Shown: piece after piece, positions 18,887 through 31,035 of the stretch
Position numbering within the stretch: position 1 is the first letter of the stretch
How the letters are laid out: the number at the start of each line of letters is the position of its first letter
DNA from: Bryoerythrophyllum caledonicum
Lineage: Eukaryota; Streptophyta; Bryopsida; Pottiales; Pottiaceae
DNA length: 64,000 nucleotides
NCBI GenBank assembly: GCA_963971425.1
Contig: OZ020520.1
Coordinates: forward strand, 24,198,754-24,262,753
Direction: 5' to 3'
Notes under the pieces: model-generated
Seen by the model: only the letters and a program-made list of their open reading frames with translations
What the model was told of the DNA's origin: nothing
Database searches by the model: none
Program-made: the position numbers and the translations under genes

Positions 18887-18896
18887 GCGGATGTAC

Positions 18897-18960
18897 GGAC
18901 GAAGCTATTTTGCGTGCCGTGAGCGGTGAGCGGAGAGCGGTGAGCGGTGAGCGGTGAGCC
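18897..18960 (+). repeat. MULE left terminal inverted repeat with GGTGAGC array
   Basis: It starts GGACGAAGCTATTTTGCGTG, then repeated GTGAGCG/GAGAGCG units. It pairs with the right end at 30953-31025. Short subterminal arrays of this type are usual transposase-binding regions; binding here is inferred. Confidence 0.9.
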
Positions 18961-20713
18961 TAGAGTAAAATAGTGGGGCATTTTTTGGGAAAAGTTATTG
19001 ATAAAGTTGGAATTAATGTAAATGAGAAAGTGAAAATTAAAGCAAAAGGTGACGGTAGAGGGCCTATAGCCATGGATTCCTAGTCTTATATGATTTATTT
19101 GTTTGTATACCAAAGTACCTAGGGAGGTACTTTTTAAGAAGGGGGTGGTGAATGAAATTGGTGAGGGTTGTAGAAACCCTATGACCGTGGATTTCCAAAA
19201 CTCTCTTCAATAAGTGATGTTGCATAAATATCCCTATTATTCAGCATCATGTTTATATGAAACCGACTTGTGTGTTGATTTTTACATTTTATCAGCATTC
19301 ATAGAAAATGCAATGCCAGTTACGTTGCATGATCGTACATAATAGAAATAAATAGTATATTTTAAATTTCAGAATACCCGTAGAAAACATGGAATGTTTT
19401 AGGATACAAATTATAATGATTAAAGATACCTCATATATATAGTGGAAAATGTGGACTTGGGAGAATAGAGTGCTTGTGTAGGAAGAGATGATAGGAAGGA
19501 TTTTTGTATATTAAATTACTGGTCAAAGTAGGAGCTAGGTAGACAGTTTTGGAGTGGCATATTATATGTAAAGTAAACTTCATTCCAGAGCATTGTTGAA
19601 TTTTTACATTGCTCAACTTGTTGGTACATGATAAACTTAGTAAATTTAAATGGCCTACAATGAAAGTCTTCATGAATCGACAAAATTTTTAATCTGAGGA
19701 ACAAATTTAAATCTCGCAATCTGAAAGACGACACGGTTCAATCAAAATTCCAGACATTAATCTTATTGAATATGAATGAAACCAAACAGAGCAAAAGGCA
19801 TGCAACTCATAGTACTTTAGTGATTCTCATTGGTTATTCATTGTATTCCTTGCTATTGCATGAGTTTTAGAACTATGAATCAGGTTAATATACTCCATGG
19901 GTGCTTACGCTTGAGCAAGCGTATATATGAACTTCAAATTTCACAACGACACTCTTCATGGAAGATACAACAAGTTGGGTAATTGAAGGCAAAAATTTCA
20001 CAATGTAAATATGTTGTTAAATTTGTACTTGTCTTTAACGTTCCAAGAGTTCAAGATATGGAGATCACCAAATGAAGGAAGATTAAAGCAAATAATGTAA
20101 TAGGATGAAGATATATTGGGCTATAGCACTAAAGAAATAGCCAAGAAGTGTAGCATGAAATTTGGTTGTGAGGATGACAAAAAGAAATATATATTTTGCA
20201 AGCCACATTATGTTAGCAGCCAATGAAACAATCGTGCACTGAATTACAGAAAGGCGGGAATTCAATAATTGACCAAATAGAAGTTTGAATTGAGACTGCT
20301 AATATGGAAACAAAATATGGAAATTCTAAAGGATAAGGATCGTTTACAAACAGATCATAACATAAACGCCAAAGAAAAAGGAGAGTCCACAGAAGATAAA
20401 AAGTGTGCTCACGCAGATGCAGACGAACTAGAGGCCGAGGAGGAGGATAGGACATGTCTTTCGACGTCTGCTTCTACATCTAGAAAATGGAGCACATGGG
20501 AATCATATCACCGATTGTGGGTATGGATTTGAGGAGACGAGGTAGTCGCCATTAAGTCTGCGACATGGGCGGCCCAAGGTGGCAGCAGAAAATCTTTGGT
20601 TGGGGAAGCCGCCCTGGCAATCAGACTGCAGAGTCCATAGAGAAATTAGGTTATCAAATCAAGGAATTCTTCACAGAGAATGGCAGAGAATTTCAAATTT
20701 AACAACTTTGAAC
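18961..20713. other. MULE left internal non-coding stretch
   Basis: AT-rich sequence between the left end and the 3' end of the ParB/methyltransferase-like gene. Small open frames have no recognisable features. Confidence 0.55.
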
Positions 20714-23700
20714 TTACGTACTCAGTCTATTTCTTTTCACAATCTTGCGGATAGGAATGTCTTCGTCTAAGAGAGTTGCCATTGGAGGCGCCTCGCTTGG
20801 GATGGTCGAATCGACTGATGGCGATGATAGGGCCTTCAACTTCTCGTTGAAGACAACGGTGTCGCTTTCCAAAGCAACAATATGACGGCCGGACATCTGG
20901 CATGCGCGCACAGAATTTCCTGCAAAGGAATAACAAAATTAGTTATGACTACAATTATGTACATTGCTTAAGAAATGAAGAAGACTCACCGATAGAGGCA
21001 AACGCATCTAGAACAACCGCTTGAGGCTGTGATAAAGCCTCGATCAACATCTGGAGGAAGGTAGCGTCCTTCTCACGTGGCCCCCTCCATGGAATGGATC
21101 CTCGCATGGACTGTGATTCGGCAGAGGTGAAATTGAAAAGAACATCGGATTCTTCCACGCCCATTCCCATCTCACAGAGGGCGTCGTTTTTATTGAACTT
21201 GAAGTTGGCAACATCCACATTCTGTCGAACAAGGAACAAAACACGGAACCTACGCGACTGCGATTGCAATGCACGTCGAATCCAATAGAGACAGTTAGAA
21301 TGAGATATACAATAAAATCAACAAATAAAACATCTGAAATGTAAGAAGGAGGATCGGTTAAGCGCACCTTCAGCGAAGCATCAATGTGCGAGGTGAATGG
21401 GAGGTCGTTTATTGCCCACCAATCTCTGAGGATTTTGAAACCGTATCCGCCCGCATAAGACAACACATCGGACCGGATAGAGGGGACCTCGGGCAAGAAG
21501 ATTAGCATCCCGCCCTTGTCATGGAGGAAGAAATCTGAAAACTCAAATAAGCTCTCCACGACCGGAATCGAATACTCGTTCCAGGTTGGAATGTCATTTG
21601 TATGCTTCGAGATGGATGGAACCGGCATCCCGTCAGGGATGTCTGCCAAGATCAAGTCGAATCCACTGTGAGGGCAGTGAGCTGAACGACCTGAACTGCA
21701 AGCTTTCTTCCTCGCCTGGACAAGCACAAGTCAGTAATAGTGTTTTGAAACAATGGCATTGGATGTTTTGTTACAATGAAGAGGATAATTTATAGTTCTA
21801 GTTGTAAAACAATCCTATTCTTTTGGGACAACAACAATCAATAAGTACAGGAAAAGAAATAGACATATCTTGAAATTGAGATGTAAAAAACAAGCTTAAG
21901 TACCTGGAGGCCAAACTTATTCATGGCAAGAAAAGAAATAGACATATCTTGAAATTGAGATGTAAAAAACTAGCTTAAGTACCTGGAGGACAAACTTATT
22001 CATGGCAAGAAGCGTGGAATGCTGGTCAGGGAAAGAATCCATGATCATAGAGATTGATGTGTTGTCTACAAAGACACTCGCTGGTGGAGGTGGCGAGGTT
22101 CTCCCAGCCTTCACCGTCATGATAAGCATGTTAGAGTTCTGTGAAAGGGGACTTGAAGCGTTCGATGCTTCGGGTGCTGATCGCTTTGATCTCCTCTGAG
22201 ACTGCAAGGGCGCCACTAAGGACTCTGAATCCAACATCTCAATGTCATCAATACGAGCGGTGGAGGCCAAAGTGATCAGCTGAGCATGTTGTGAGGCTAG
22301 TTCCGCCTTCGCGGCGGCAAGTGCTTTGGCCACTTCCACTGCTGCAGCCTCCAATTCAGCCTTTGCGGCAGCCTCTGACTCTGCTTTTGCTTTAGCAGCA
22401 ACTTCAGCATCAGCGGTAGCCTTTCTCTTGGAGACACGGGTCTTCTTCGCACCAAGTTCTGTAGAAACAGAAGGAAGTATTGTTTCCGTACTCAATAGAT
22501 CTGGCTGGACACTGTTCCGTAATTCGATATCAAATGAAGGAGGCCTCTTAACGGGACAATCCAAATACCAACCACAACGCTCCCAATGCTCACGCCCCCA
22601 TGTCTTCATGATATCGTCAGTGAACATGAACATATCACTAGTCTTCTCCAAGTAATTGGAGAAGGATGGTGGAGTACGAGAAATTGCCTTCCTCGGGAAT
22701 AGAATGTACATGAAGTACCTGTAGAGAGTCCGGTTGATGGCTTGCTTAAGTCCTACTTGCTTCTCGGGTGGATTATTCTTATGAACTCCCTTCCCCTTAA
22801 ACTCGTTATGGAAGGCAATATCCCAGAGCTGCACGCGCATCTGTTCAACATATTCGGGTATTGTTTGGATAGGCATACCATGCTCAGGAAAGTAGTCAAT
22901 ATTAACCTCCATGTCATATAATATCCCTTGGAACAATGATTCAGTCTCCCCTGAAAGCTGCAATTACCATTCAAACAATAGTAAGAAATAGAAGCACAAT
23001 GAAATAACACTATCAAAGAATGGTAATTCAGCTTGTACCTGAGCCCACCATGTGGCCTTGTGAAGCCATTCTGGAAAGTCATGGTCTGGGAACTTAGACT
23101 TCGGAAAGCGAACTTGTTCACGAAGGGAAGATGGCTTGTTCCACCTTTCCAACCATTTCACTTTCATGCTTGGGACCATAGCGGAGGTGGCGAGGTAGTA
23201 GAGCTTCTCCTGAGACATCTCAGGATCATCTTCGCGGTCCTCATAGTGGATTCGAACTTGTTGAAGAAACTCGGAAGTGTGCTTGGGGTCAGCAATTGGC
23301 AATTGCTTCTTGAGCTCAGATGTTAGTTGAACCTTCACTTTCTCAATTGCGGCTGAAACAAAGTCATGAAACTTGGCGGAAGTCCAAAGAGAGTCATCTG
23401 GAAACTTCTCCTTGAACTTTCGATTAGCATGAGCAGCTGCCTCCCCCAACTCTTGCTACAAAACCAAGCAAGGTGTCGCGTCAACAACACTGAACATTCT
23501 GATCAACACACCAACAATTGAAGTAGGGGAAAGCATCCACTATAACATTGATGAAAAATGCAAGTATACTGAGTATATGTTATAGAAGAGCAAGAATACC
23601 TGATAAAGAATTGCGATTAGAGACTTGAATGTCAAGGTATACCATGTTCTGTCCTTGGACTTCTGCTTTGCCTCGGCAGCTGAAATTTCATCCTTGCTCA

Positions 23701-25727
23701 CCAAGGACTCAAAATACTGTAGTGGCTGCCCGGCAATGCCCTGAATACGATATAATTTGTGGACAAGGTTCATGGTGACGTGAGATTTTTGGTTCCTCCT
23801 GCAAGCTCAAATTCATAAGTTAGAATTTAATTTCACCAACTAACTGAAAGCAAATGGTAATCATACCAGTTAACTTGGTGAAGAGCTGTTAGTAGAGGAG
23901 CCACTTGACCCTCCACATTGAGGATAATAGATTCCACCGCATAATGCCACTTAGCATCGTTGGAATGGTCTCGATTGATTATTGGCATCCATGCTTGTAA
24001 TCTGTGGTTCCCATCCCAAACATGGAACATTCTTCCAGAAAACTGCTTTAAATCCTCATCCATCTCCAATTCAGTCTCAAATTGTTCATTTGCTTGAGTC
24101 CACAATGGACTCCAAGAATCTGAAATGGCTTGGGTGACAGTTACCGTCTTGCCCTCGTTGTCCTCCATAGCCACGTAGAATACACCGTGGCCATCCATAT
24201 ATCCCGTGCTCACAAAATGCGCACCCAAACCCATCACATCATTCTTCAAAGAAGGTCGAACTACCGGTAATGAAATCATTCTGCATAGAGGAATATTCAA
24301 CTTTGATTTGTGCCTTGGTTTAAATCGGAGCCTTTCCAACACAAGGTTAGTATTCACAGATTCTTTGATGACCAGTTCATCCATCTCCTTTCCAAGCTCG
24401 TCGGCGGACATAAGCTTCGAATTCTCATCTAGGTCCTCCAAATCAAGGTCTGCCGTCTCTATCAACGGCTGGACTTCTGCAATATCATGGAATACCACAT
24501 GAGATTTGGAAATCAAAATGAAACAAAACAAAAGTAAGTCCAATCACATTACCAATACCTTCGTTCTCCTGATCATGTTGGCACCCCCCTCGGGGGGGGT
24601 GCTGTCCGACAGCACCCCCCCCGAGGGGGGTGCCGCTATCGGCGACCCCCTTGCGGTTCGCGACTTCTGAGCCAGGTCGGCGGCCCGCAGGGTAGTGCCG
24701 ACAGCGGCACCCCCTCGGGGAAGGCTTTGTCAATGTCGACAGCCCCGCCCCCCCGACGTGCAGCTGCCGCCTTCTCTCCTACGGGGTGCCGACCGTGATC
24801 CAAAGTCGCGACCCGCAAGGGGGTGCCGACAGCGGCACCCCCTCAAAGGTGGCGCCGCAGATATCGATAGAGAAAATAACGAATAAACTCAAGGATTACG
24901 AAGAAGAGGAGGAAATACATGAGATGCTTACCCTCCATGTCGAGTCTTCGATGATCGCAACTTCCCTCAATCTCGAGGCTGTGGGTGTCGCTCTTTCGAT
25001 CAGATTGAAGCCCGTTGTCCTCGGCTGCGACGACTTGCGTCCAAGCCTCACGTTAGATTTAGATTTTGTGAACTCATCAAGCAAGCATGTGAGTGCAATC
25101 AGTTGCGCACTATCGTGAAACCCTACATTGAATGAAATCGTTCCTCCTCTCTTCTTCACTGCGAATGCCTCGAAACCCTTAGCAAATAGAAGTGGTTCTT
25201 CCTGTCTACCTCATATCGGCAGCAATAAAACCCTATTTTCTCAAAATGGCAGGTAAGGGCGGGTAAGGGCGGGAACTCACGACGGGATTGGACGGGAACA
25301 AGACTTGGCCATATGTAACAAAAGACTATTGACTTAACGGCTTTAGGGTCTTTTCAGCCTTTGACATCTTGGACCTCGCACAAAATGCTAAAATCACAAA
25401 GACAAACATAACTTGGACTTGAATTAACTCACATTGATCGCAATCCATGGCCGACCTCGGGGGGGTGCAAATTCCTTTGCCGTTGAATTGCAAATCGAAA
25501 TTGGGTTGTTTATCCTCCGTAACGTGCTCTGCAATTCTCTGAAGCTCCGGACCACTCCGACAACTCATAACTGGACTCAAGTCAGATGCATCCTCAAAGT
25601 TTAAAACCCTTGCGGTCTCGCCTGAATCTATCTCCCTCGGCATCGACTTCTTCTCTCTCATTTGCCTACTCCGTTTTAGCGTCTTTGCATCACTAAAGTA
25701 CAGAGCTTTTCTCTTTTGCCTCTTCAT
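20714..25727 (-). CDS. ParB-like / beta-class methyltransferase-like transposon protein (copy 2, intact)
   Basis: Ten exons, all with consistent phases: 25433-25727, 24932-25122, 24559-24568 (a 10-nt micro-exon), 23867-24476, 23600-23798, 23039-23455, 21983-22957, 21368-21715, 20990-21257 and 20714-20919. They give about 1172 residues. The N-terminus is basic (MKRQKRK) and may be nuclear. Around residue 320 stands a ParB/Srx-type motif, DGNHRLQA. A long Ala/Lys/Glu helix lies in exon 7. Near residue 918 is FDLILADIPDG, in the place of catalytic motif IV, and at about 1095-1116 LDAFASIG...GRHIVALESD, the SAM-binding motif. Motif IV before the SAM motif is the order of beta-class N4-cytosine/N6-adenine methyltransferases, and ParB-methyltransferase fusions are known in phages and bacteria. 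DPPY is replaced by DIPD, so activity is doubtful. The gene is divergent from the MULE transposase. Start: first ATG of a splice-consistent exon. Confidence 0.8.
21851..22008. repeat. 79-bp tandem duplication over an exon 7 splice donor
   Basis: Two copies of a unit beginning GAAAAGAAATAGACATATCT start at 21851 and 21930. Each includes the same exon end and donor (CTCCAG then GTACTT on the minus strand). The gene therefore has two candidate donors, at 21983 and 21904. Only the proximal one keeps frame, because the unit length is not a multiple of three. Confidence 0.85.
24580..24634. repeat. 55-bp perfect GC-rich palindrome in an intron of the ParB/methyltransferase-like gene
   Basis: Arms of 27 bp, beginning GGCACCCCCCTCGGGG and ending GGTGCTGTC, around one central C. 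It is followed to about 24850 by further GGTGCCG/CGGCACCCCC units. It lies 11 bp from the micro-exon. Related units occur in the intron of the transposase gene at 28584-28860. Confidence 0.95.
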
Positions 25728-26357
25728 AATTTTTGAATTATGATTCTACTTGCATTCAACTCCTCTTTCACCACCACCTTTTAGCGGCCATTCTTTCAAG
25801 GTTTCAACGTAGTTAATTCAGCAAGTCTGCTCATTTTTATTCAAAATTTTCTAAATTATTGTAAATATCCCACCAATTCTGTGTTCAGATCGTGGAAGTG
25901 ACTCGAATTCTTTGTTATTTTCAATTTCTTATAATTTTATGTGGCGGCCGTTTCAATCTAAACATATCCCTCTCCAGGAAAAACCGTACGAAGGCGGCTC
26001 TGAGATTAGATCAGCTAATTCAGAGTCATGTTAGTGCTGGCCAAATTCTTTGCCAGATCAAGATTGCTTTCATTAGAATATTATATACAGGATCTGAGAA
26101 GCGGAGCTTATCAATATTAATAGCGCAACATTATTGCAATTTGACGGCCCTTTCCATGTCTCCCTAGCATCATCCATCGTGGATACACGTATGCCCACTG
26201 TCCTTTAATAACCTTATGGTTGCTATAGTTACTCTCAGGGGCTTAAAGTATATATACTCCTATATATCTCCCTTGAATCAACTCTTTCAATGTCGTCTTT
26301 GTTAGAATTCAATTCACTTTGTCTTTGATAGAATTCAATTCAATTGTCCTCTAAATT
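25728..26357. promoter_or_regulatory. Divergent intergenic region of the MULE
   Basis: These 630 bp separate the start codons of the two MULE genes, so both promoters must lie here or in 5' introns. TATATATACT at about 26248 (gcttaaagtatatatactcctatatatc) is a TATA-like site for the plus-strand transposase, about 100 bp before its ATG. A direct repeat of TTAGAATTCAATTCA/ATAGAATTCAATTCA sits just upstream of the ATG. Regulation is inferred from position only. Confidence 0.5.
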
Positions 26358-29300
26358 ATGGCTGACCTTGAAGATGAACTGAGCAGTAGTGTCTTGCTTC
26401 GAGGAGATGGTCCTGGAGTCCCTGTTTCATTTGTAGTAGATGAAACTGGCTTTGCTTCTGTGAGTGGAAGTCGTCTTGCATTGAGGTTCAAGATCTCTGA
26501 GGAAACGGTTCATGTTGACCGAGAAGTGTTTGATGCAGTCACGGGTGAACTTACTCATTCAATTGCTCAGATTAGTAGTGGCCGTGGTGAGGACGAGATT
26601 TGGTCGCTGAAGGCAGGGAAATACCGAGTTTATGGCAAGTTCGATAGCATCCATGGAACACCCTTACCTGCGTTTACACCGCGTCTGTCATCTAGTGCTA
26701 GTGAGGTCACACCACTGCTTTCAAAGGTCAAATTAGAGCCAGTTAATGACAATGTTTTTGTTTTGAGTGACGACTCTGATTGCGAGTGCCTTCCATTGAA
26801 TCCTGGCATTACTTCGTTTCAATCCTCATCTCTTTCTTCCAATCCTCGTCCATCGTCCTCTTGCTTTGTTCCCGATCCTAGATCTAAACCCCCTCTTGCA
26901 CCATCTGCCTCGTCTCCACTAAGCATAGTGGACTGCCTCCGAAATTTGAGTTCCCGGCGTAGATCAAAGTCAGTCCTTAGTAGAATAGATTTCAATTCCA
27001 TCACCATAGAGAAAGTCGACTTTTTGCCTCCCACTTTTGATGGAGACATCGTGTTTGAACTACCTCCTCTTGGAAACACTCTTCCTTCTTCCAAGGCAGG
27101 CCACCTCCACGGTATGGATAAGAAACATGATGGTCATGCTTGGACTCGTACCGTCACTTCTCACATCAAGTCTGATCAGCAGCTCACGTTCCGGATGTCT
27201 TCATGCTTGGGACACCTAAGGTGCACTAATAGTCTCTGCGACTATCTCAAACGTCCCAATCGAACATCTCCTTCTAATGAGACAGAGTGGGAGGGTACCG
27301 CCTCCTCTTCATTTCTCCCTGGCTGTGAGCCACCTTTCAATTCTTCTGTTCTTTGTGCCATTTGTCTGCTTCCCCCGACATGCATAGACAGTTGTATGGC
27401 TAAAGTCTATTATGTTGTTGGAGAGAGTCATATGTCACGTGCATGTGTGCATTTGGGATATCATCGTCATGCGGTGAAGAGAGGTAATTGCAGAGAGTCA
27501 AACGCAAAACTTAGGGCCTTGATTGGGGAACAAGTTGAACGGACTCCCAGTGCGACAAACTCCTCCATCATCTTGGAAGCAAGTAAGGATTACCTTGGAG
27601 AACTGCTCCTCTGCCCTGACGGTGTTCCGCACAAGACCTTGGGATTAGATGAACTTGTCCCTGTCTTGAACAAGGTGAAGCAGATGACCTCCCCTAGTCT
27701 CCGCAATGAAGTCACAACATTCCGTTACTTGCGTCGATTTGGAGTCATGGACAGTATAACAAAATTGAGAGGCTCTAGCAATTGGGCTTTTGTCCAAGAG
27801 AACCGTTTTCTGGGACAAGGTGCAGACGCAGACAAGGTCTTTATATTTAAGATGGCAGAGATTGGACCAGGGAGTGGTGTTGATTTAGTACGCCGAATGC
27901 AGCCTGGCGGTGATTTGCAAGACTCTTGGATGATGTTCGATCATGTGAAGCGCGTCAAAGGATGGACTACAATGGCTTCCCATGTGTATGATTCCACGTA
28001 TTGCCGTGTTATGACCATTGCTATTTGTGACATGCAATCCGAGGATGTCGCTGCGCAACGAGTATTCTGGAACAATTTGAATGCAGTGGCGGGTAGGCAT
28101 GATATGCCAAATGTGAATTTCAAAGGCTTCATGGCCGATAGCGCACAGGCAAATTGGAATGCTATACGTATTACTTACGGAAGTGGAGACGCGAATATCC
28201 GAATGGACAACCGGGAAAGGACCTGCCTCTTTCATTGGACGCAATCATTGGAAAAACATACAAAGGCAGACATTAGGGCAGACTTGCAAGACCAACACAA
28301 GCGACTTTGCAAACAATATAAGAATTCCACATCCATGGAGGAGGCACAGACTAAATACCTCGCCATTCGATCATGGTGGTTATCTTCTGGAGCAACGACG
28401 GATGATGGCCTCGTCCGACTCGACTTATGGCTTGCCTTTTGGCATTTCCGCTATCGACAGTGGGGAGGCTTCATGGATCATGTAAGCTACCCATACTTCA
28501 CTTTTATTTTCTCTGACGTGACCATCTACCAATTTTTTTTTCATTTGTTGAATATTGTCGAAGTCCTTTTTTTCTTCCTGCTAGATGGAGGTGCTGCCTT
28601 CGGCACCCCCCTAAGTCTCGGAAATTAATAAATCACATTTTACTCGTCAAATGTCACAATAGCGGCACCCTCCCTGGATGCTGTACCTCTGAAATCTTTG
28701 CTCTACTTCAGAGTGGGTGCCGCTGTCGGCACCCCCTTGGAGTCGTCGACTGTTGTATTCAGAGTTCCACACGAAAAGAGGTGTTGTTGTCGGCCCCTCC
28801 TTCTGAGTCGAGCAATGATTACTTCCGCCAACCACCCCTAAATGGGAGCCGATAGCGCCATCCCTCTTTGCTAAGGATATTCACAACTCTATTTTGATTA
28901 GTTTTTTTTTATAGTGCCAAATTGACATATTGACGTAGAATTGTTTATGTCTTCCAGGCTTTATCCGAGTCGGAATTAGCTGAGATGCCTTCATGTAATC
29001 TAGCGGAAACCGTTCACAACAAGTGGTTGCAGCAGTCAGGCAAGAGAGGCAACGACTTATATGTGGCAACCGTAGATGACATGGTTCGTGCCTTCATGCA
29101 AGTTGTGGCCTATTATGGATTTCTGAAGGGTGAGAAGGCTGGAACTGGCCCAGGAAAAGAAGAACTTCGACTTCGTGCCGCCCAACGAACTGCGCAACAG
29201 TCTGGTAATTCAAAAGTACTTCACGAAGCGTTTTCCAACATGCCTGGGGCCGACGAATTTTGCATCCGTGACCCTCATCTTGAAGGTGAAGAAGTCTTTC

Positions 29301-30409
29301 TCTCAATGAAAAGAAAGGCTGATCTACCGCCGGGTTCTGAATTTGACTCTCACCGACCCGACAAGATCAGTATCTCACGCCCTCGTGTGAAGACTGGACG
29401 GATAAATCCAGAAATAAGTGTCCTTCCAATCGAGGTTGACGTCCAATATCCGGGTCAAGAACATGATGCAGCTCGAGCCCCTGATTCCCCGACTCCGCCA
29501 TCCTCCTTACGAGTACAACACACCAAGAATGTTATGGAATCAGATTGCGACGAGAGACAATGGCACATTGCTAGACTTCCGAAAACCTCTGCAAAAGCGT
29601 GTTTTGCTCAACAGGCCATCACAAAGAAGAAATGTGTTGCCAAGATCGTACAAGGCGGGAGAAGTACCGTTGCCCCGACTTACACAGGTATGATGGACAG
29701 CTACAAGAAGAATAGGCATGAGAAGATGCAGTTCTTCTTTTGCAATGACGACATCGAGCGTTGTGTCAAAGGCAGTCGAAGGAAGTGGGTTTTGTCCAAA
29801 CCTGAAATCCCAGATGTATGGCCCGTTAAGATGGGCACGAATCTTGTGAGTAAGGAAATATTAGCACTTGAAAACGCTGGGTTCCGCCTGGCCGAGCGCC
29901 TACAATTGTCTCCAAGGAAGCTTTTTAGTGACATTGCCGCGCCCGTGGACTTGGAGGAATATCCTCCGCCCGTAAACCCATTAGAGCATCCCACAAGGAG
30001 GTATGGAAAGAATATCCGCAGAAATCCGCAGGCACCGACTACAAAACATCATAACAGTTGCGCCTCTGCACTCTCCGTGGTTGGCAAAATTCGCAAGATC
30101 CTTATGGTGCCGCGACCAGCTCTAGGGTGCATTGTGAATTTGGAGTCCACAAGCATTTCCAAGGTCTCCACATATTTGGTGGTGATTGGTCAGTTTCCGA
30201 GTTGTAGTTGTCCATCTTTCAAGGAGATGTCTGACAAGTCGCTTGGCAAACGCGCGCAATGGACATACTGTAAGCACCTCTACTTCATCCTGAATATTGT
30301 CTGTGGATTAGATCCTGAGGTTGATGTATTTATGCATGCTCCTAGTTTCAGCTGGAATGAGACCAAACAAGTTATTCAACTTTTGATTCTCAAACAGTAT
30401 AGTGCGTAG
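26358..30409 (+). CDS. MULE transposase with SWIM zinc finger
   Basis: Two exons, 26358-28481 and 28958-30409 (donor CAT-gtaagc, acceptor cttccag), join in frame to about 1191 residues. Exon 1 has a Ser/Pro-rich N-terminal region, then a cysteine-rich segment (CAICLLPPTCIDSC) and the MULE core with MTIAICDMQSED, GFMADSAQANWNAIRI and the C-x2-H motif ERTCLFHW, followed by LAFWHFRYRQWGGF. Exon 2 begins with NLAETVHNKWLQQSG. It has a C-terminal SWIM-type finger, C-S-C-P...C-K-H (about residues 1119-1146), and ends shortly after HAPSFSWNE. The frame has no stop or shift and the splice sites are good, so it may be active. It would catalyse cut-and-paste movement of the surrounding element. The exact catalytic DDE residues were not assigned. 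The single intron holds GC-rich palindromic repeats. Confidence 0.9.
28584..28860. repeat. GGTGCCG...CGGCACCCCC repeats in the transposase intron
   Basis: Several inverted pairs occur, such as GGTGCTGCCTTCGGCACCCC and GGTGCCGCTGTCGGCACCCC. They resemble the units flanking the 55-bp palindrome of the opposite-strand gene. They form imperfect hairpins and have no coding role. Confidence 0.8.
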
Positions 30410-30952
30410 TTATCCGTATGGGCATTTCAACACTGTGTTACATTTCTTTTATATTATTCAAAAACGGTGAGACTACAAGGGCCACCGGATGTGTTTCTAA
30501 ATTGACAATTGTTTAGATAGGGCGCAACCTCATGTATATACAATCAAATGCACGACACCTTCCATTTGAGATATGAACAAGTATTTAAATATCTGGAATC
30601 CAAAACTACATGGAGAAGTCCAGGAACTATAAGGACATTATCTAAGATGTCAAATGCTTTGTATTCAAATAATAAACCTTCGTTACATTATTTCACAATG
30701 AAATACTTCAAGTTATTTGTAAGTTCACAATTTACTTGTCTAAGGTCCTACACTTCCTGTATTGCCAAGTTGAATGAATCCATACGTTCATGGAATCACA
30801 CCCTCGTATACGGTATGTTTTTCCCAAAAAATTAAGCGGCCTCTTTCCACGGCTTTAGGTCACACATATTTTACTAATTTTAGATATTATATTCTACAAT
30901 TATTCCTAAACTTTTTATTTTCCAAAAAAATCTCACAACAAATTTTTATTTT
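30410..30952. other. MULE right internal non-coding stretch
   Basis: AT-rich sequence between the transposase stop codon and the right inverted end; probably 3' untranslated sequence. No gene is recognised. Confidence 0.55.
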
Positions 30953-31025
30953 TCAGCTCTCGGCTCACGGCTCACGGCTCACCGCTCACCGCTCACCGCT
31001 CTAGGCACGCAAAATAGCAATCCCC
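30953..31025 (-). repeat. MULE right terminal inverted repeat with GGTGAGC array
   Basis: Reads GGCTCACGGCTCACC..., then GGCACGCAAAATAGC. Its reverse complement starts GGGGATTGCTATTTTGCGTG and matches the left end from GCTATTTT on. It abuts the second GCGGATGTAC. Confidence 0.9.
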
Positions 31026-31035
31026 GCGGATGTAC

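Follow-up and report, generated by a model that had tools for sequence, protein, structure and literature searches.

How might a transposon recognise its own DNA within a host genome? There are few systems in which the molecular details of how transposons evade silencing by DNA methylation have been worked out. The question is raised by a 64,000-nt stretch of the moss Bryoerythrophyllum caledonicum (assembly GCA_963971425.1, contig OZ020520.1, positions 24,198,754 to 24,262,753; hereafter the window), in which positions 18897–31025 form a complete 12.1-kb DNA transposon. Its two open, divergent, spliced genes encode a transposase and a second protein, here called ParB/MT, that joins a ParB-like box to a methyltransferase (MT)-like domain. 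A first-pass annotation of this DNA had suggested that the second gene marks or binds DNA and could protect or target the element. What is new here is a 16-bp palindrome, GTGCCG-N4-CGGCAC, that occurs in introns of each gene, and with these palindromes that suggestion becomes testable. Taken as a whole, the locus is best explained as an autonomous, recently active Mutator-type transposon carrying a self-recognition kit, a reading to which we give an even chance of being right.

The element is bounded by a perfect 10-bp target site duplication (TSD), GCGGATGTAC, found by a scan for shared 10-mers at 18887–18896 and again at 31026–31035. Its left terminal inverted repeat (TIR; 18897–18965, plus strand) reads GGACGAA, GCTATTTTGCGTGCC and then GTGAGCG repeats, and its right TIR (30957–31025, minus strand) has the same core and subterminal repeats. 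The TIR arms are 62 nt long and 90% complementary, as expected of the Mutator superfamily, with the outer seven bases of the left TIR pairing poorly with the opposite end. TSDs of the Mutator superfamily measure 8–11 bp, and the 10-bp TSD seen in the window and at 14 of 16 other places falls within this range. The scan, the inverted arms and the open frames confirm the anatomy given in the first-pass annotation, namely a 12.1-kb element with a 10-bp TSD, inverted ends and two intact divergent genes. Subterminal GTGAGCG-type repeats number six at the left end and five at the right (one mismatch allowed), vary in number in copies L013 and L016, and are candidate transposase sites. The flanks of the element contain reading frames that resemble copia pol when judged by eye.

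The plus-strand gene has two exons and a predicted spliced product of 1191 aa (both gene models were drawn by eye from GT-AG borders and reading frame). Exon 1 (26358–28481) contains MMFDH (27930–27953), MADSAQANW (28131–28157) and CLFHW (28215–28238), and exon 2 (28958–30409) a SWIM-type CxC...CxH (30203–30286) and the stop codon. The signature of the Mutator superfamily core is D...D...CxxH. When the window protein was aligned with 18 of its 59 relatives in the protein collection, none of which is informatively named, D528 and D594 (the aspartates of FDH and ADS), C623 and H626 were invariant in all 19 sequences, and these residues are probably catalytic. A SWIM finger is clear in P0054, a 31%-identical relative (E 6.8e-5, 22.8 bits, above the cut-off); exon 2 of the window transposase, at the corresponding CxC...CxH, stays below the cut-off (E 0.48, 10.5 bits), and the close relative P0001 shows no SWIM match. 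No Pfam model, the MULE DDE domain included, matches the whole window protein at E≤10, and no MULE model matches the 19 aligned transposases at E≤1. The earlier call of a MULE transposase rests on anatomy (TSD length, D/D/CxxH, and a SWIM finger that is clear in the distant relative but sub-threshold in the window protein), which suggests a divergent Mutator-type transposase, and not on the MULE profile. Because that model is unmatched, we call the element Mutator-like or Mutator-type rather than a proven member, a miss that leaves room for a divergent one.

The GCTATTTTGCGTGCC core together with GTGAGCGG occurs at 17 places in the genome, the window counted, and all 16 others were fetched. 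The right end was found at 14 of them, each time with a perfect 10-bp TSD and each time of a different sequence; the remaining two lack a right end in the stretch read. Since perfect TSDs stand at different sites in these 14 copies, the family has moved recently. Alignment to the window element gives about 99% identity or more for 13 of the 16 copies; L013 stands at about 95%, L016 at 98% but rearranged, and L011 is diverged. Uninterrupted frames, again with the window counted, are present for the transposase in 14 of 17 copies and for ParB/MT in 10 of 17. In 437 Mb the exact 15-mer of the element end is present 470 times, its reversed control not once. The transposon family is recently active.

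The minus-strand ParB/MT gene has ten exons, GT-AG borders at all nine introns and a stop codon ending at 20714, and its predicted 1203-aa product contains WDGNHRLQAW, GFDLILADIPDG, VLDAFASIGNS and GRHIVALESD. Exon 1 (25433–25727) supplies the start codon and is followed by exon 2 (24932–25209), the 16-bp exon 3 (24553–24568) and exon 4 (23867–24476), in which the ParB-like box WDGNHRLQAW lies at 23989–24018. After exon 5 (23600–23798) come a conserved linker in exon 6 (23039–23455) and, in exon 7 (21983–22957), a conserved part followed by an Ala-rich part of low conservation. The MT-like part begins in exon 8 (21368–21715) with the motif-IV position, ADIPDG at 21629–21664, and continues through exon 9 (20990–21257; motif X, PWRGPREK at 21066–21098, and the start of motif I) to exon 10 (20714–20919; the end of motif I, motif II GRHIVALESD at 20861–20890, and the stop). 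A 79-bp tandem duplication (96%; window 21848–22005) spans the end of exon 7 and its donor, so that either of two donors could be used; in most near-identical copies, too, both units align.

The C-terminus had first been read as a permuted beta-class amino-methyltransferase, and a block of motif X, motif I and motif II does follow the motif-IV position, which is the beta-class layout. In profile searches this part matched the PDB profiles of RsrI (E 5.8e-4), DpnA (1.8e-3) and CcrM (5.6e-3), beta-class N6-adenine methyltransferases of solved structure. Motifs X, I and II of these enzymes align with the ParB/MT protein, while their N-terminal half with motif IV stays unaligned and their DPPY is replaced. 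The Pfam model N6_N4_Mtase reaches E 3.4e-4 and 21.1 bits against the window protein, short of its curated cut-off of 26.7, and matches five of six family members (best 1e-6). These matches support homology of the ParB/MT C-terminus to beta-class amino-methyltransferases; the weaker part of the earlier description is DIPDG, which lacks the canonical DPPY/W of motif IV.

The other half of that description, a ParB motif, was recovered as a conserved box. Across 65 aligned exon-4 sequences (61 of 120 listed homologues, from 322 found, plus four sequences of this genome), G, N and R of GNHR are invariant and D and H exceed 90%. Box variants are DGNHKL in the recent copy L024 and KGNHRL in the Ceratodon protein P0125. 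A comparison with Spo0J-type ParB by hhalign was not significant (probability 0.24%) and aligned only DGNHRLQA with the ParB GERRxRA box. Among PDB profiles another alignment gave no match, the sole match of the 65-sequence alignment, to a ribosomal protein (E 0.0086), was taken as chance, and a shortened piece of the window protein gave one S-layer match (E 0.77) and no ParB among PDB profiles. The ParB assignment is a match to a conserved motif that profile methods do not confirm, and is weaker than first stated.

The palindromes are intronic in each of the two genes, in the window as well as its copies. Intron 2 of ParB/MT contains GTGCCG-ACAG-CGGCAC twice, at 24695–24710 and, 128 bp away, at 24823–24838. 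The transposase intron contains GTGCCG-CTGT-CGGCAC at 28717–28732, 126 bp from a one-mismatch copy, GTGCTG-CCTT-CGGCAC, at 28591–28606. Genome-wide, GTGCCG-N4-CGGCAC occurs at 1,901 sites compared with 16 in a reversed-sequence control, and the version with a 5-bp spacer at only four sites, with 12 in its own reversed control. This spacer control disfavours reading the palindromes as hairpins only; the fixed 4-bp spacing suggests instead that some protein binds the DNA as a dimer. In diverged relatives, exact sites stand in arrays, four in L041 and eight in L044. Between array units, identity is 72/72 (100%) inside the dyad and 377/663 (57%) outside it in L041, and 175/180 (97%) inside and 1293/2259 (57%) outside in L044, the dyad being common to lineages with different array units. 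Intron 2 of ParB/MT also has an inverted repeat whose perfect 27-bp arms are separated by 1 nt (24580–24634), and this GC-rich stretch differs among near-identical copies.

The positions of these sites were compared with landmarks, defined as ParB, MT, transposase or end signatures from partial lists, for the first 50 of the 1901 sites (C1, 0–10.2 Mb). Forty-one lie within 5 kb of a landmark, although such zones make up only 2.4% of that stretch, and 45 lie within 10 kb, where the zones make up 4.0%. Nine of 12 palindrome clusters are near landmarks, against a random mean of 0.33 (5 kb) or 0.52 (10 kb), two of the 12 being near-identical copies of one element. The centre of the palindrome is pyrimidine-purine in 42 of the 50 sites, and 106,932 bp outside elements contained no palindrome. 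Over the same part of C1, exact sites occur within 8 kb of six of nine exact ParB signatures, and near four of the nine they cluster 0.5–2.3 kb 3' of the signature. For four of 21 exact transposase signatures, from three lineages, sites lie 0.45–0.9 kb 3' of MADSAQANW, where the window has its transposase intron.

Is the ParB/MT gene a regular partner of the transposase? The first-pass annotation had staked its idea of a dedicated partner on finding the gene in other copies of the element, and it is there, in a recurrent divergent pairing. The ParB-box signature (≤2 mismatches) occurs 1,242 times in the genome and the transposase signature 1,080 times, with no match in the reversed controls, these counts being motif matches rather than proven genes. 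At 17 of 39 transposase places a listed MT exon lies within 30 kb, divergent in all 17; this count set 39 transposase rows out of 78, each standing for one gene, against 92 MT rows, and excluded rows for second exons, the majority of those from near-identical copies, and any outside the listing. On C1, an exact transposase signature lies within 20 kb of 29 of 56 exact ParB signatures, where the random mean is 2.4, and 26 of these 29 nearest-match pairs are divergent and 4.2–10.8 kb apart (exact-match rows of C1 only, 56 ParB and 76 transposase). It is found again in lineages whose divergence reaches about 50%. A group of transposases at 69–70% identity (G000 C4:570410, C12:12606005, C14:20574194 and others) has no listed ParB/MT partner within 30 kb; there the partner may be very diverged or lost.

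Between the window and L013, the ratio of nonsynonymous to synonymous substitution rates (dN/dS) is 0.21 for ParB/MT exons 4–10 and 0.37 for the transposase. Between lineages, dS was unsaturated in nine of 46 exon comparisons, with dN/dS ranging from 0.05 to 0.31: 0.048 and 0.068 for exon 6, 0.089 to 0.307 for six pairs of exon 8, and 0.152 for exon 9. For exon 4, dS was saturated in all six comparisons. The ParB/MT protein, its MT-like part included, has been kept by purifying selection over the life of the lineage.

A full-length ParB/MT search of 5.8 billion proteins returned no match among the 8000 candidates sharing most words, the ones scored; the likely reason is that predictions made without splicing are no longer than an exon. 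A profile of exon 4 found 322 homologues, and among the 120 listed the only one named by organism is from the moss Ceratodon purpureus (53%). A prokaryotic or viral origin was considered and set aside: the viral contigs scanned contained no relative, and a phage search gave 14 records with a best E of 2. Genome contigs yielded one relative, L045 (1–4691), filed under an uncultured Synechococcales (cyanobacterial) metagenome-assembled genome. It is spliced and eukaryote-like, with 24–37% identity over several exons, and the contig is a probable contaminant. Rfam gave no match at the gathering threshold.

Fusions of ParB to methyltransferases occur in phages and plasmids, and ParB binds palindromes of about 16 bp near its own gene. 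The GNHR-type box and palindromes of that size near the gene are what the moss element shares with bacterial ParB-parS; in contrast, its profile similarity to Spo0J-type ParB is not significant and its sites lie in the introns of a eukaryotic transposon. The same domain pair opposite a transposase, a case absent from the first-pass annotation, has already been published: Sola1-1_Ec32 of Ectocarpus carries a 1104-aa gene with ParB-like and N4C/N6A methyltransferase domains opposite its transposase, and the same source refers to two works on cases in green and red algae (PMC12477816). The protein kind is therefore already known. The two genes agree in domain pair, size (1104 vs. 1203 aa), strand opposite the transposase and a large DNA transposon as carrier, and the authors of the Ectocarpus case likewise suggest binding and modification of the gene's own element (PMC12477816). 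They differ in that the carrier is Sola1 and not Mutator-type, and the likeness is one of domain description, not of sequence comparison; in the passages of PMC12477816 consulted, neither binding sites nor palindromes nor a test of selection are mentioned for the gene. In the parts of the open-licence PMC literature consulted, we found no report of a ParB/MT gene in a Mutator-type or land-plant element, or of intron palindromes.

A possible functional parallel is VANC, with VANC21 as the working example, from the VANDAL elements of Arabidopsis, which are Mutator-like. VANC proteins attach to short motifs in the non-coding DNA of their own family, upon which host methylation is lost, and these motifs have built up there, introns included, as tandem repeats (PMC5735166; PMC10398659). 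VANDAL likewise has an accessory gene (PMC5735166; PMC10398659), and its target motif likewise forms rapidly changing tandem repeats in introns and non-coding DNA, enriched in its own family (PMC5735166). The differences are that VANC is another protein, that its motif YAGTATTAY is no palindrome, and that methylation loss was shown experimentally (PMC5735166). Motif arrays in the non-coding DNA of the carrier family are found here too, with the sites as putative targets. By this analogy we propose sequence-specific self-recognition followed by marking or anti-silencing. The ParB/MT-like protein would bind the dyads, probably as a dimer, and gather on element DNA, where its MT-like domain might methylate nearby bases (N4-cytosine or N6-adenine) or use S-adenosylmethionine (SAM) binding without catalysis. 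The element would then be marked as 'self', and host silencing would be counteracted or the transposase aided, in a VANC-like manner. A stronger version, in which a ParB-methyltransferase-like protein loads on parS-like sites, spreads and chemically marks the element, would amount to partition-type self-marking other than by 5-methylcytosine, with about a thousand copies in one plant genome and a eukaryotic transposon super-lineage behind it; this we consider unlikely.

Several observations weigh against a self-recognition kit. ParB was not among the matches in any of four profile sets, namely PDB, PHROGs, Pfam and NCBIfam, the last three returning weak, scattered non-ParB hits. The link between the ParB/MT protein and the palindrome is solely one of co-occurrence, and an incomplete one: in C1 0–10.2 Mb, three of nine exact ParB signatures have no exact palindrome within 8 kb and 17 of 21 exact transposase signatures none within 2.5 kb, five of the 50 listed sites are more than 15 kb from any landmark, and the relatives L042 and L043 show one relaxed TGCCG-N4-CGGCA each in the parts read. 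Judged from 12 recent copies, current constraint on ParB/MT is weak or unmeasurable, the ratio of nonsynonymous to synonymous changes being 0.71 with two stops (0.53 for the transposase) and the changes few, with little power. Copy L021 (with L037), 10,053 bp long, has lost most of the ParB/MT gene and retains an intact transposase and a perfect 10-bp TSD; it is a natural test of whether the gene is required in cis. Finally, motif IV reads D-[IFL]-[PK]-[DE]-G in all six aligned members and DVPED in the far relative L045, and the canonical catalytic (D/N/S)PP(Y/F/W) is absent from both. In known enzymes the aromatic residue of this motif stacks on the flipped base. Here that residue is absent; methyl transfer is putative, and catalysis is unproven because motif IV differs from DPPY. 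The same substitution is the argument for a catalytically dead MT-like domain in a protein that serves only as a DNA-binding accessory or anti-silencing factor, an alternative that falls somewhat short of an even chance. Against it, the three motifs that contact SAM in known enzymes (X, I and II) are conserved, and exons 8 and 9 show dN/dS of 0.09–0.31 at unsaturated dS, selection by itself being no proof of catalysis. That the gene is a captured host or bacterial passenger without function for the element, as in Pack-MULEs, is far less probable still. Mutator elements commonly capture genes, and L021 does without most of this one, but 1,242 gene signatures stand against 1,080 transposase signatures, the divergent pairing is recurrent, dN/dS is low, and the collections scanned hold no convincingly bacterial or viral relative.

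The palindromes themselves allow two further explanations. They could be sites of the transposase or of a host factor, related to enhancer function, replication or excision, with the ParB/MT-like protein acting elsewhere. Their presence in the introns of both genes suits this, as do the subterminal GTGAGCG arrays, another candidate binding motif at both ends, and the ParB signatures that lack a nearby palindrome. Nothing speaks directly against it, as the rigid spacer and conserved dyad suit any dimeric binder; the clustering of palindromes 3' of four of the nine ParB signatures on C1 points the other way, and we regard this explanation as doubtful. Alternatively, the palindromes could be neutral GC-rich tandem repeats spread in the introns of the family, their symmetry arising from repeat turnover rather than binding. 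The sites of L041 and L044 do belong to tandem arrays (about 128 or 169 bp), and the GC-rich part of ParB/MT intron 2 varies among copies. Yet unit flanks are just 57% identical against 97–100% in the dyad, the dyad is kept across lineages whose array units differ, N4 outnumbers N5 by 1901 to 4, and the pyrimidine-purine centre recurs in 42 of 50 sites, so that neutral repeats are improbable.

The interest of the locus is that a recently active plant-type transposon family pairs a protein of bacterial style, putatively DNA-binding and methyltransferase-like, with short palindromes of rigid spacing inside the element's introns.

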